Part shown: positions 55,464 to 61,946 of the stretch, piece by piece
Layout of the letters: every line of letters begins with the position of its first letter
Numbering within the stretch: position 1 is the first letter of the stretch
NCBI GenBank assembly: GCA_038501195.1
Contig: JBBPUQ010000009.1
Span: 1,860,001-1,924,000, forward strand
Direction of reading: 5' to 3'
Source: Nemania diffusa
Lineage: Eukaryota; Ascomycota; Sordariomycetes; Xylariales; Xylariaceae
Length of the DNA stretch: 64,000 nt
Translations under genes and position numbers: made by a program
The notes under the pieces: model-generated
What the model was told of the DNA's origin: nothing
Database searches by the model: none
What the model saw: the letters and a program-made list of their open reading frames with translations, nothing else

Positions 55464-56238
55464 TTAAGCTTCTGACATTTGAAGCAACGGCTTAAGCCCG
55501 CATGTTGCTCCCGCAATGATATTCTTCTGCCGACTTTGCTGGTAGGCTTTATTGTTTCGAACAGTTGCAAATGTGGGCAATTCCCGAGGTTCCATCCCAA
55601 TAATCCCATTGAGCTGGTCCGCGGCCTCGCTCGTCGCGTTTCCTTCAATAGATAACTGCTGCTTAGACCTCGCTTCCATAGTCGGTAGCCGGTCCCCAGT
55701 CTCAGGCGCTTGAACCAACCGCCCAACCTCGTCTGCTATATTGTTTGTCAAACCCACATGTATCACGTTTATATGTATCGTGAGCTCAGTCTTGGCTTGT
55801 TCCAATCGCGTTAGAATGTTGGCTAACTTGGCCTCATCTCTGGACCCGTGACTCCAGGCACGCATACTCTGACGGAAGGTGCTCTTGCGCTGAAGTCTCG
55901 CCATTATTGTTAGTCTTTCGCACAGCTCGGTAGCAATATTCTTAATGAACTTCAACTGGGTGTCGATCTCGTCGGTGCGCAGTTTGGGCTCGCGTTCAAT
56001 TCCGCTTAACACTTGTACTAGGTTGGACAACTGTGTGTTCGTATCGAAGATCAACTTAGGGCTCGCTTTTACGCGCTCGTAGGATGTTTGGACTTGTTGC
56101 CAAAGGTCGATGGCTTGAGAAAGCAACTGGGATACCGCTGCTATAGAGCCGATCACTTCCTTAGATCCAGGACGCCATTAGTATCAATAGGGCTTCAATA
56201 TTTCTATTAGAAAGGGGAAATCGCCGAATGCTCACCAT
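55464..56238 (-). CDS. HET-S-like protein with two C-terminal amyloid-type motifs (putative)
   Basis: 232 residues. The first exon is only ATG (56238-56236); the intron 56235-56160 has donor GTGAGC and a TACTAAT branch site, then exon 56159-55464 begins EVIGSIAAVSQLLSQ. That is the usual opening of a fungal helical N-terminal family related to cell-death/STAND effector domains; LTIHINVIHVGLTNNI near residue 127-142 also fits. The C-terminus has two copies of a motif like the HET-s-related amyloid motif: EGNATSEAADQLNGIIG (173-189) and RNNKAYQQSRQKNIIAG (202-218). Both share N-x8-Q-x-N and I/G positions. Domain plus two terminal repeats is the layout of HET-S/HET-s. Assignment is by eye; role as a cell-death effector is inference. 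A divergent NLR-like gene lies 1.5 kb away. Confidence 0.6.
56160..56235 (-). other. intron separating the start codon from the HET-S-like body
   Basis: Donor GTGAGC directly after ATG, branch sequence TACTAAT about 20 bases before the acceptor CTAAG. Without this intron the long frame has no ATG in the conserved N-terminus. Confidence 0.6.
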
Positions 56239-57777
56239 TGAAAACCTAAGTCGAGTGTCTTGTGGTATATGTATACTGCTTGCTGTTCTTTGCTTGTTAC
56301 GAAATGGGCAAGTCTCGAAGTGTCTCACGAGGATCGATAGAAATTTGGCAACTTATCAGAAAAGTAAAGATTTAGTTATAAACATTATCACGTTAGAAAA
56401 TTTAAACTGGAGATTGTGGCGTGAGCACCAGTGAATGCACAAACTTCGTCATGCAGGCGAATTGAATGCCCTGTGATTCGAGCCACGATCTTTCGATATT
56501 GCTACCGAGACGTCGCTTCCTATCTATCCTCAAAGTTAGTATAGATAGGAGTATAGATAGATGCCGCTTTAGGGCTTTAGAGAGACAAAGAGTAGATCAG
56601 GGCTTCAGTCTACATCGGAAGCTGGTGCCGAAAGGAACCAGGATGTTGACGGGTGATACCGAAAGGAACCAGGATATTGATGAGTGACACGTGACTACAG
56701 TATACTAATTCAGATTCACATGATCTGAATCGAAATGTTGCGCCCCACCTGGATGTACTTGCTGTATAAATACAAAGTACGTATTGTTGGTTGGTTCTAG
56801 AACAGAGGATGTATATGCGGAAACACAACCACTGGATATAAGATTCGCTTACATATACATCCAAAGCCTTACTTTTTACCAAGCAGTTAGCACCGTATTT
56901 GTCATGGGATACCAAATTCGGGCTAGTTCATCTAAATGATTCCTGAGGTTTTCTTCGGGTGGGTCAGTATCTAGAGAAGCGGAAATAGATATCGAATTGA
57001 CTGCCCCTCCATGAATTTTCTCCATTATCATTAATACAAAGCACAGTAGGTACCTATGCGAGCGCTGCCGCTTCTGGTTAGGTAGCTATCATCGCCTGGG
57101 CATAATACCGCAGCTACGGATAATGCTGAATGGGGGTTATTGACTTGGAAGAACTTGCAAGTACGCATTTGGTATTTACACAGCTGTAACAATCGCCTAC
57201 TCTCGCACTCTCACGTAGCTATGCATGTCTGGAACGTGTCATCAAGAACGTGGAAGATTTGATGATTCATTTTGACTTACGAGCCAACTGACTAGATAGA
57301 AGCGAACATTCAAGTACGTATGGTAGCAGTGAACATCGCATTTGCCTCAAGAGAGCCAGCTGGATAATTAGATGGCCACTCCATTAGGGTACAGGCTACA
57401 GCCACAGGAGCTACCATCGCGCCAAGCCGAGGCAAACCCCGCCACCTCATTCGTTTATAGGGCCGGGGAGGGGAAGCATTCTCTAGTGGGGGGTGCCTAA
57501 CAGGGAGTAGTCTAGCGATACTGCAACAAGGTTGACAGTGAGGCTCATTGCGTAGGTAGCTGGATAGACTCTGGAGGGATAGGGCGCGGGCGGCTTTCCG
57601 GTCGGTTTGTTGTCAGCGACAGCACACCTGGACAACTCATTCCCATCCCAGAAATCGTGTTGTCATTTGTTGTAGTAACAATCGGAATCCTGAAGAGCAT
57701 CTAATTCGCGAGCTATATTAGTCTAGCACCGTTCTTATAGGGACTCATTGGGTGTGCGTAGCTAGCCGAGGGGGAGC
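56239..57777. other. divergent intergenic, 1.5 kb
   Basis: Between the HET-S-like and the NLR-like genes. Contains a short direct repeat CCGAAAGGAACCAGGAT at about 56628-56675. No supported gene. Confidence 0.5.
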
Positions 57778-58954
57778 ATGTGTCGCCCTACGTCCAACAG
57801 CGCCATTCGCAACAACACCGCCCTTAACAACGCAACACAGAACAACATTCAGATTTTAAACAACATTCGGATTTCAAACAACATTCAGATTTTTATACAA
57901 AACCATAGGATTCAGGGCGAAGAAGCAAAGACAACAGGTATGCAGATCCTCGGGAATAGGTGTGCTTGTGCATGCTAGACTCACTGATAATTTACCTCTC
58001 GCATAGTCTCGACTTACCTACGAGGCAATGTCCAAGATCAGACCGAAGCGAATGTCGTTGACACCATGACAGCTAATCAACCAGCAGAGCTGAACTCGCT
58101 GGAGGATTTGCGAACCAGCTGTTTCCCAATGCTAATACCAGTGAGAGACAACTGGTTGGACCGCGTACACCGCTATAGTTACGACAGGTGCACGGCTATT
58201 GAGGCATTAGGGCCAAATAACCGTGAATTATTAGGGTCTTGGTTGACGCAGTCCAACCCCGACATTTTAATAATAGATGTGAACTCCGAGCTTGACGATT
58301 CGTCATGGACGATTCATTTTCTCATAGAAACAAGGCACCTTCTCGAAAGGCTATATCCCAAGAACGGAGGTAGCCCTAGTGCTATCACCACTCATCTCTG
58401 TCCAAGAAGCGAAGCAGACAAAGACTACGGCCCAGACATTATTCTTCAGGTTAGCAAGTTAGCATGTTTGTCTGAGGCCCACCGAGATTTTCTAGTTGCC
58501 ACTCGCGCTCTATTGGGTCCGGCGCCTGATGGAACCTGCCTAACTAACATTTAACATTATCTAGGATCTTCTGGTTCAGATTATCGAAGCCCACCCTAAG
58601 AGATTCGGTAATTCTACAGTGGCTCAGCTACGTGCTGCTGCCCACAAGCCAGAGAAGCTCTGGGAATTGATCATCAAGTGCATCAGGCAGGCACAGATAC
58701 GCACACTAGTTATCTTGATCCATGATATCGAGCAGATGTTTCTAGAAAGTTATAAAGAAACTCGCAACAACGATTTCGGGTTTGTCCAGCGCCTCAACGA
58801 ATTCATTCGGCGCCTTCACAGAGAAGATAACATCAATGTCAAGACAATGGTAACATGTAGACTCGAGAAAGCCACTATCTGCTTCAAGGAAACTGGGGCG
58901 ATACGCATTGCGATATACAATCCACCCTATAACACCTTTCCCACGGCTGATTAA
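57778..58954 (+). CDS. NLR/STAND-like protein with N-terminal Asn-rich repeat and degenerate P-loop (putative)
   Basis: Three exons, 57778-57937, 58007-58449 and 58565-58954, give 330 residues with all joins in frame. The N-terminus (residues 7-50) is Asn/Ile/Gln-rich: RNNTALNNATQNNIQI, then three 6-residue repeats (NNIQIL, NNIRIS, NNIQIF). The rest resembles the NTPase region of fungal STAND-like proteins: LLGSWLTQSNPDILIIDVNS stands where a W-I-x-G-x-x-G-x-G-K-S strand and loop are expected, but no GKS/GKT is present. IILQDLLVQIIEAHPKRFGN and KLWELIIKCIRQAQ follow, then a Walker-B-like TLVILIHDIEQMFLE and a sensor-like VKTMVTCRLE. There is no C-terminal repeat domain, so it is short or truncated. 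The NTPase is probably inactive. Assignment by eye. Confidence 0.5.
57841..57894 (+). repeat. three 18-bp tandem repeats encoding NNI(Q/R)I
   Basis: Three consecutive 18-base units beginning AACAACATTC, in frame with the coding sequence. They encode NNIQIL, NNIRIS and NNIQIF, an alternating polar/aliphatic pattern that favours beta structure. Confidence 0.85.
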
Positions 58955-59327: not shown

Positions 59328-61946
59328 TCAGCGCCATCCCTTACCTTCTTTCTCTTTCTGGCGTGGTAGCTGCGGAATAAAATCATACATGGCCTGAGGG
59401 CTCCTCGGAGTCTTGTGCATGAGCTCTCTGAATTCTCGACCAAGTCTAAGAATTTTCCTAATGTGTATGATACCCAGGCACCCTGCGTCTAATATGTCAG
59501 TACCTGACTAGTGTGTAGATCAAATGTACTCATAAGGTCTGTGTGGATGAATGCAAGAGCTTCTAGTAATAAGGCAAAGGATAATATTATTAAAAGTTGA
59601 TTCAGTGAACGTACCTCTGTCTTGATGAGCAAGCGCCGATGCAGCAGCTATGCAGTTTCTGATTTGCCGTCCATTCATATTTACGTGTGCGCCTCCCTCG
59701 GTTGTCTCCAGATCAAAGTCGATGAATTCTTCCAATGTTTTTTCCTGGTTCTTGGTCAGACTTCCAAGACGCCGAATTTCGAGTTTCCAAATGCGCTTCT
59801 GCGACTCAAGTTTGATAATAGGAAGTGGTATGGCCATGTCTACCCGCGATTCAAGTGCAGGGTCGAGTTCAACACGGGTTGTAGTCATCAATATCAAGGC
59901 TTCAGAGTTATCCAGGTGGTGGAGGAAGATGGAGACTATAGCATAGCGCTTCAGATCTTGCATGTTCCGTGTTGTGATAAAGATATCGGCGTCATCTAGT
60001 AGTAAAATGGCCTTCCAGTTTGTGGCTCGGAGAAACACCTCCTGAAGTCTCCTTTCCAGGATGTCTACATCTGTTCCTAACTCGCCACACGTCACTTTGT
60101 ACAAGGGAACAACATGCTTGGCAGCAAGACATTCTATATCGAAGGATGCAATAGGTTAGCCAGCGCAAAACACCGAGAAGTTGGTGATTACAGCCTGCTT
60201 AGGACAACTGTGGGACTCACCTGCGGTTAGGGTTTTACCTGTGCCAGAACTGCCCTGCAAGAGAATGTTGAACCCACGCCCCTTTCTTCTGACCATATCC
60301 CCACCATTGACCCCCTGTCCATCTTCCGGTTTCAGATGGGTCAATAGAGCAGACTCAAGATAATTCTTGTGATCTACTACCATTTCAAGTTCGTTAAGCG
60401 CGCCATGTTGCTGTCGCACCTCCCTAATATCCTTAGGGAGGATCGCTTCCCAAGACTTGTGTGTTAATGAGAACGCCCATATCCTAGGTGGGCAGAAAAG
60501 CAGAGGAGCATCTAAATCGTCTAACCCCTTTTCGAAGTTTTTGTCTGAGCTGCGAGATGATTCTATACACACATCTAAGTCGTGCGGGGCCCCAGCTGGG
60601 TACGAGGGTAGCCCAAGAGCCTCGGCGACGCAAGTAGAACATGCTGAGCCGCCACAATCGGTCGCCGAGGCATTTCCTGTTACTCCAATATGCTTGCTAG
60701 ACGTCACATAATCAATAATGATGCTGACCGGGTCCTAAGACAAATGTTCAGCAACTTTGCACAAACCAAGTTTTGTTGGAGACTATTACTTACATTGCAT
60801 GAAGATCGAGGCCATGCATCACCATTATATTCCTTGTAATTTACTTCGCGACTGTAATTCAAGAACAATCTTCCTCGTTCGAGTAGCTGACGATGCAGGT
60901 CATTACGCCCCTGAAAGTACCATTCAGGCACGACCTGGAGATCTGCAATTGATCGCTCCGAAGTATACGATTGGACGCGAAGCACTTCGCGATGCGGTGT
61001 GAGCCATTTTCCAGTTGGATCCAGGTCGAGATACAAGCAGTGTATCAACATTATATCACTGCTTGAAGGAGAATTTGAGTCGGCCCTCTCAACTTTGTAC
61101 GCTCTCCATACCCCATCATCTTTTGCGAAGACAGTGATACCTGCAGGATAAATAAGCCACAGGTCCTCAAAAGCAATTTTCTCGCTCTTTCCGGCCTCCA
61201 AATCATTGAGCTTTTCCCAATCAGTGGGACGTTCCGCTTTAATGAAATCCAGAAGCAATTTGACGTGAATGCTAGTATCGTCTTCTTCATCTTCGCTTGC
61301 AGCTTGCGATATTCTCTTTCTATTGTGGAAGATCCACTCATAAGGCTCGTGGATAGTCAATTCAGGAGAAAAGCGATCCTCTTGTTGAAATGCGCCCAGT
61401 GAGTTGATAGAAGCTCGTTCTAAGACTCCCCTAAGAAGAGGGCAAATTATCCTCAATGAAGGACTTTTACGCATCAACCGAATCTCAAAGACTCGGGTAC
61501 CCTTAGGACTTCTACATTCATATGGTCCCAGATCTGATCGCGACGATTGCGTGCGGTCAAGAAGATGAAGCTACCGAAGAGTGAGAACTAGTTAGGCGCA
61601 ATGAACGTTTAGACAGAAACTAAGGGCATACATTCGTTTTCCTAAGCCAACTCTGCCCGTAGCTTGGCTGGTGGTGATCCACACACATGGCAGTACTCCC
61701 TCCATCAGTCGACAAATAAATAGCTGAGTCTCGCCTAGTTCTAGGGACCCCATCAGATACATGTTCATCCATTCTAGGAGCGTGGATCGGAATAGAGCTG
61801 CCTGGAGAGTAATGATCGATTGGGGAAACTGGTGCATCGTTATAAGCCCTGGGAACTAACTCCAGCGTGCGATTGCCTTGTGTAGGGGGTGCTGTCCTCA
61901 TAACGGCAACCTCAGTGCTGGGTTTGGATGGTGATTGTCCTCCCAT
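59328..61946 (-). CDS. AAA+ ATPase with fungal N-terminal domain (DUF7025-type)
   Basis: Five exons, 61946-61632, 61570-60794, 60734-60221, 60133-59615 and 59482-59328, in frame, give 759 residues. The N-terminal about 105 residues are disordered. The middle region (about 140-380), with FQQEDRFSPELTIHEPYEWI, IAFEDLWLIYPAGITVFAKD and VPEWYFQGRNDLHRQLLERG, matches the domain that precedes the ATPase in a large fungal family. The AAA core has Walker A LLQGSSGTGKTLTAGEC (split by an intron after the Thr-Ala), Walker B ILLLDDADIF, sensor LILMTTTRVELD, Arg-rich DPALESRVDM and the lid NGRQIRNCIAAASALAHQD. Walker B reads DD instead of DE. Such genes are numerous in accessory regions and of unknown function. 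The last exon join is the least certain. Confidence 0.8.

Follow-up and report, generated by a model that had tools for sequence, protein, structure and literature searches.

We analyzed a 64,000-nucleotide stretch of the Nemania diffusa genome (assembly GCA_038501195.1, contig JBBPUQ010000009.1, positions 1,860,001 to 1,924,000; here called the window) and found that two divergent genes at window positions 55464-58954 probably form an amyloid-signaling module of the HET-S/NWD2 kind. One gene encodes a small effector with two C-terminal repeats (R1 and R2), the other a receptor-like protein with a single N-terminal copy of the motif (r0). The gene structures, the repeat architecture, the sharing of the motif, its conservation and the related pairs in the source genome are observed; amyloid folding, templating and membrane killing we infer. 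The shared motif probably represents a new subfamily working with a stripped receptor that lacks an ATP site, because the rules of the HET-s-related amyloid motifs (HRAMs) are broken, the other definitions tested do not fit, and the receptor is not a complete NOD-like receptor (NLR). A more specific version is tentative and, in our judgment, somewhat short of an even chance: a subfamily with the core [IV]xxNx[AT]x5[QM]xN and at least three distinct channels, one of which would use a receptor made of r0 and an ATP-site-less NACHT core (ExxDSSWT) as a trigger without a nucleotide switch. Published systems are described here from parts of the cited sources.

Results

An earlier note, made from the sequence letters, had described a minus-strand protein of 232 residues ending in two related motifs. 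Both strings are present, and the length of 232 residues requires a first exon of a single codon: the effector gene (55464-56238, minus strand) starts with an ATG at 56236-56238, followed by a 76-nt intron (56160-56235, GTGAGC...AG) and exon 2 (56159-55464). The divergent neighbor, said to start with a copy of the motif, indeed encodes a 330-residue protein with r0 at residues 8-26; the gene occupies 57778-58954 on the plus strand, with exons at 57778-57937, 58007-58449 and 58565-58954 and the stop at 58954. The splice model of each gene gives a single open frame. The second splice point of the receptor-like gene agrees with a gap-free alignment with the proteins of two relatives; the first falls in a highly variable linker, and the relatives give it no support. 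A spurious open reading frame (ORF) made by tandem repeats was considered as a source of the neighbor's first ORF and was ruled out by the in-frame splicing and by the conservation of the motif without the repeat.

The effector consists of an N-terminal domain (approximately residues 1-141), a variable linker and the two repeats. R1 (LSIEGNATSEAADQLNGII, residues 170-188; 55599-55655, minus strand) is supported by the alignment of effectors and the identity figures, and R2 (ATVRNNKAYQQSRQKNIIA, residues 199-217; 55512-55568, minus strand) by the identity figures. Six effector relatives scored among 333 candidates: one from Xylaria curta (81% identity), two from X. multiplex (67 and 59%), one from X. 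arbuscula (62%) and two without a species name (61 and 40%). The mean identity to the window effector was 0.74 in R1 and 0.77 in R2, compared with 0.65 in the domain, 0.37 in the linker and 0.30 in the loop between the repeats, which is 10 residues long in the window effector and with which the six relatives align. Across the seven effectors, 9 of the 19 positions of R1 and 6 of the 19 of R2 are invariant. The repeats are distinct by order, since NxT occurs in R1 of all seven proteins and NxA in R2 of six.

The N-terminal domain is predicted to be helical and, as far as profiles and models can tell, distantly SesA/HeLo-like. Below its cut-off, the Pfam profile SesA matched five of the seven effectors (best E 0.0053) and PigL_N (HeLo-like) three of them (best E 0.004). 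The AlphaFold2 model of the effector contains four long helices at low confidence (mean pLDDT 49); among the 50 matches listed from a Foldseek search with it, all were generic helical ones (best E 0.043) and none was a HeLo or MLKL entry. The window effector also matched seven other stretches of the source genome, with E from 2.4e-6 for the best to 0.05 for the last.

On the receptor side, r0 (SAIRNNTALNNATQNNIQI; 57799-57855, plus strand) is supported by alignment, matrix scan and shuffles. Two receptor relatives, which scored among 1113 candidates, cover 99-100% of the 330-residue protein: NUW58_g1664 of X. curta (59% identical over 99%) and O1611_g3128 (39% identical; labelled Lasiodiplodia mahajangana, a label checked against the taxonomy entry only). 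Mean identity was 0.74 in r0 and 0.24 in the linker behind it. Among the three receptors, 12 of the 19 positions of r0 are invariant, as are 5 of the 60 residues just after it and 82 of the 216 in the core. R1, R2 and r0 are thus conserved islands between poorly conserved stretches. An 18-bp tandem repeat (2.9 copies, 57841-57893, plus strand) repeats the NNIxI tail of r0; it was not seen in the proteins of the two relatives and, by lengthening the r0 tail, could alter seeding.

The sequence RNN-x-A-x5-Q-x-N-I is common to R2 and r0, as the earlier note had seen by eye, and a matrix ranking supports it. Local 19-column HMMER profiles placed r0 at E 3.3 to 19, too weak to rank it clearly, and we therefore used a full-length matrix. 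It was built from the seven R2 sequences only. Translating 52 sequences, namely the window and 51 loci, in all six frames gave 208,320 windows of 19 residues, among which the matrix ranked r0 top after R2 itself, at 17.3 bits compared with 12.0 for the next; the two relatives' own r0 copies would stand 2nd and 14th. Shuffled N-termini matched the score in 13 of 5000 replicates for the window and in 10 of 5000 for X. curta. With a matrix of R1 and R2 together, the three hits after r0 came from the motifs of two further SesA-like loci, both picked through their N-terminal domains and independently of the motif; the score was reached by 3 of 5000 shuffles for the window and by 11 and 60 of 5000 for the two relatives. 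The R1 matrix alone misses r0 (266, 232 and 573 of 5000 shuffles for the three receptors). Given the matrix ranks and the shuffles, the similarity of r0 to the effector is real and modest in strength, partly compositional (N/Q-rich) and directed toward R2 rather than R1. Charged residues number one in the window r0, three in R1 and four in R2. Short queries with r0, with R1-R2 and with the repeats of a second pair, L016, were run against the complete genome; they returned only their own loci and are therefore uninformative about the frequency of the motif.

The rest of the 330-residue protein is a reduced NACHT-like core of the NPHP3_N type (residues 115-300; 58189-58861, plus strand, with the intron 58450-58564 inside). 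Pfam NPHP3_N was weak in all three receptors (best E 0.0017); the window receptor reached 16.7 of the 24.8 bits that the cut-off requires. Profile-profile comparison of the receptor with 21 NPHP3_N domains from the source genome gave E 6.7e-8 and a probability of 92.5% across the whole domain. For this set, 29 of 30 loci were considered (L048, with an in-frame stop, was omitted), of which 21 were kept and 8 dropped; an open frame and GxxxxGK[ST] were required, so all 21 carry Walker A. An AlphaFold2 model of the X. curta receptor (pLDDT 62.6, pTM 0.67) came nearest to ORC, TnsC and other P-loop ATPase folds, with a best E of 0.0057 and none below 0.001. The core is NACHT-like. A pattern search for Walker A GxxxxGK[ST] found none in the receptor-type proteins P0007 and P0008; in the profile alignment the window receptor has ELDDSS where the proteins that retain the site show PGxGKT. 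The place of the lost site reads NSELDDSSWT (58282-58311, plus strand), and all three receptors keep ExxDSSWT there. Neither WD40, ANK nor TPR sensor repeats were found at the C terminus, and the three receptors end at the same point. Of 2268 candidates sharing words, none gave a longer relative with E 1 or better, and the source genome showed no second copy at this threshold. As read from these sequences, the neighbor is not a complete NLR.

Related pairs occur elsewhere in the genome. The pattern [IVL]xxNx[AT]x5[QM]xN, fitted after the sequences had been seen, has eight occurrences in 245,355 positions, all in three effector/neighbor pairs: r0, R1 and R2 of the window, the same three elements of the L015 pair, and R1 and R2 of the L016 pair. 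In the relatives of the window genes it is found in 11 of 12 effector repeats and in both r0 copies. At L016 (C8:4191500-4201499), a SesA-like effector with repeats VILNNLTWHQATQINGPIG (R1) and VEIKDNRAGTFSAQINYPVA (R2) lies divergently beside the gene of a receptor that combines a P-loop and WD40-like repeats. The receptor has an intact P-loop (GGPGKGKT), an NPHP3_N match of 85.3 bits and an open frame of 1422 residues; its WD40-like repeats gave several matches in the stretch analyzed, each under its own cut-off, and its first exon, from a manual splice reading, is MNVSSNTNYFGVQVNAPIG. The L016 motif variant reads QxN[GAY]P[IV], and the L016 r0 aligns best with its own R1. By sequence, L016 is a HET-S/NWD2-like pair. 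At L015 (C7:3885500-3895499), a SesA-like effector with two repeats (VEIVDNKTEGRANMINGYIG and VHIARNVAKDDSIMVNRNIS) is divergent from a neighbor with the motif at its N terminus (ASIDNNLARDSALMLNGDN); in the two ORFs scanned downstream, NACHT was unmatched and HeLo matched only weakly, and this neighbor is possibly a non-NLR partner. Each of the three N-termini scores highest with its own effector, in all three rows and columns (39, 32 and 39, compared with 17-35), and shuffles reached the own-pair scores in 6, 6 and 32 of 1000 replicates. At a fourth SesA-like locus, on C1 (L017), the neighbor's N terminus matches no stretch of the locus.

To place the motif among known classes, we used published core patterns and Pfam profiles. 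For HRAMs, the founding paper reports G19 as perfectly conserved (310 repeats analyzed; PMC4518210). R1 of the window contains NG; the aligned residue is I in the window R2 and r0, Y in the L016 R2 and R in the L015 R2. The window r0 has no G, and that of the relatives has one too close to the N terminus for a 21-residue register. The hydrophobic pattern at positions 5, 8, 10 (or T), 16 and 18 with R/K at 15 was complete in no register (three best registers per protein, seven effectors): six of the seven effectors reached three of the five hydrophobic positions and P0005 four, in a register straddling the loop and R2, and none of the best registers had R/K at 15. The layout agrees better with HRAMs, with a small protein, C-terminal repeats and a 10-residue loop within the published 6-18 residues (the domain match being below threshold), and with a single N-terminal copy in the adjacent gene that resembles R2 and not R1. 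HRAM membership was rejected on the missing G19 and the incomplete hydrophobic pattern. The PP and PUASM patterns published in PMC9815663 and the GDQN pattern of PMC12261475, as given in the parts of these sources covered, were absent from the motif. Sequence searches of the Protein Data Bank (PDB) were unproductive (best E 0.058, none, 0.83 and 0.97); for the motif profile, no chain scored better than E 0.97, and amyloid entries were absent from its matches. As a positive control, the NACHT_sigma profile matches the source genome at three places elsewhere, all within a single cluster.

In X. curta, the effector and the receptor have the consecutive gene numbers NUW58_g1663 and NUW58_g1664. 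The named relatives of both genes are fungi, mostly Xylaria.

Discussion

In the published model, r0 of an activated NLR folds and templates the r1 and r2 repeats of the effector, and the pore-forming domain is unleashed (PMC9815663). The anatomy of the locus fits this order of events. The 232-residue protein would be the cell-death executor, with a helical SesA/HeLo-like domain that probably attacks membranes and is held inactive, and a disordered tail whose R1 and R2 could fold as stacked beta-rungs; the 330-residue protein would carry the one copy, r0, that acts as the template. Once the NACHT-like cores were brought together, the clustered r0 motifs would fold, seed R1 and R2 and release the killing domain. 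NLRs are thought to act as ATP-driven switches. In the window, ATP-driven clustering is probably not the trigger, because the core lacks both Walker A and sensor repeats. Our guess, which we hold tentatively, is that the 330-residue protein oligomerizes on a ligand or on another receptor and is an adaptor-like trigger.

The main rival to an adaptor-like trigger is an inhibitor or decoy, with r0 capping or capturing the effector repeats in a fixed off state as an antidote beside the killer. We consider this unlikely. The loss of the ATP site and the sensor with retention of the motif and the core would suit it, as would our finding no long relative of the 330-residue receptor; however, the adjacent r0 protein is an activator in HET-S/NWD2 (PMC9815663), and the L016 receptor of the same genome has an intact P-loop and WD40-like repeats. 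A slightly less probable reading is that the neighbor is a decaying remnant of a NACHT receptor and the effector responds to a different receptor or to none. The lost Walker A, the lack of repeats, the lower conservation of the receptor than of the effector (59 vs. 81% identity to X. curta) and the lack of another receptor copy in the source genome at E 1 or better could all reflect decay, but the three receptors (the relatives being 59 and 39% identical) retain an open reading frame, the conserved r0 stretch and the 82 invariant core positions, together with the invariant DSSWT and a common C-terminal end. That an N/Q-rich, partly repeat-made N terminus merely lies beside an unrelated SesA-like gene is highly improbable: the 18-bp tandem repeats do cross the r0 tail and shuffles sometimes attain the score (13 of 5000), but what X. 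curta and the third protein conserve is the motif and not the repeat, and variants of the motif occur in two more pairs.

Several results weigh against the signaling module as the explanation of the locus. The window effector scored 12.9 bits with SesA (cut-off 26.3) and 15.1 with PigL_N (cut-off 27.2); its tail is disordered in the AlphaFold2 model (pLDDT approximately 30), and the X. curta receptor model has a low-confidence helix at residues 14-37, overlapping r0. Charge pairing between R1 and R2 was best in the true register (14 opposite and 2 same), but a shift by three gave 12 opposite and 1 same, and charge complementarity was rejected as a mark of the true register since it is not unique to it. 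Both genes occur together in two of five genomes (the source and four named): X. multiplex and X. arbuscula have effectors, but no receptor relative was found for either, and the genome labelled L. mahajangana has a receptor relative, with no effector found, a patchiness that annotation gaps may explain. The motif test is weak for this third receptor (76 of 5000 shuffles with the R2 matrix), and the motif tests as a whole rest on few, related sequences, with structure models poor in the motif regions. Among the related pairs, the L016 r0, with its N one residue closer to Q, departs from the core pattern; the L015 r0 carries four charged residues and is not charge-poor; the L015 own-pair score was the one reached by 32 of 1000 shuffles; and the cross-scores are close (window with L015 35, L015 with window 33). 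Finally, the Pfam amyloid motifs HET-s and NACHT_sigma were unmatched in both effector and receptor. The earlier note had named the lack of a profile match as grounds for refuting the pair, and for Pfam profiles this has formally occurred; the refutation is weak because the Pfam HET-s profile matches just 38 of 155 double-repeat HRAM proteins (PMC4518210, in the part covered).

Like HET-S/NWD2 and HRAM1-5, the locus combines a small double-repeat effector with one N-terminal copy in the adjacent gene; the window r0 is closer to R2 than to R1, which also holds for HRAM1 and HRAM4, and the repeats are order-specific with a 10-residue loop in the window effector (PMC4518210, PMC5485727). Low r0 charge and nearness to R2 are published tendencies of HRAM receptors (PMC4518210). 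Unlike these systems, as far as the cited parts describe them, R2 and r0 of the window lack G19, and the partner lacks Walker A and C-terminal repeats. FNT1/HELLF (HRAM5; PMC7885112) likewise pairs an NLR with an adjacent HeLo-like effector whose double motif is divergent, but its FNT1 side has NB-ARC and TPR; HELLF was compared by description. In the GDQN pair of Fusarium oxysporum (PMC12261475), the motif lies at the C terminus of a SesA-domain effector and the N terminus of a probable NLR, also outside the named classes, and differs in that the GDQN pattern is not in the window motif. The PP, sigma and PUASM pairs share the signaling layout (PMC9815663), whereas the window shows neither a PP or PUASM pattern nor a NACHT_sigma match. 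The proposal of a HET-S/NLR-type pair is therefore supported for the divergent genes, the small, predicted helical protein with two C-terminal repeats and the one N-terminal copy in the partner, with consecutive genes in X. curta and a parallel P-loop/WD40-like pair in the genome; it fails for a full NLR and for any named HRAM class.

Non-canonical P-loops (PMC4986451) and NLRs without terminal domains (PMC12258605) are known in fungi, so neither receptor loss alone is new. In the literature searched, supplementary files being outside the search, we found no report of both losses together with an amyloid motif, and none on NLRs and amyloids in Xylariales. If our reading is right, a receptor without ATP site and sensor that keeps the amyloid trigger and the oligomerization fold would represent a minimum for amyloid signaling, and the three pairs of this genome, related yet distinct, would be a natural set for studying channel separation.

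Additional Observations

In the source genome (55.6 Mb in 16 contigs), NPHP3_N has 120 matches with E up to 0.01, counted per exon, a large NLR-type repertoire. The three NACHT_sigma places (G000:C1:352654-355343, L054-L056) lie beside an NPHP3_N gene (C1:351793), and the cluster is possibly of the sigma/ses type. The Pfam profile HET-s(218-289) gave 27.4 bits, under the cut-off of 32.2, at G000:C3:5733402-5733587 (L053). The SesA-like genes at L009 (C3:1110512) and L005 (C6:3879236) lie near ORFs with repeated SGN/GNN-type stretches, at L009 FEDIDVSGDRSDIGHSMG and FTKIRVSGNDSKIGHTCQN, which are possibly further motif types.

Within the window, the two start codons are separated by a shared divergent upstream region of 1.5 kb (56239-57777) containing a 31-bp tandem duplication (56628-56687). 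The receptor-like gene adjoins an ordinary fungal AAA+ ATPase gene (DUF7025, AAA_lid_13; window 59520-61570) on the minus strand, that is, the opposite one, whose 3' end lies approximately 566 bp past the receptor stop.

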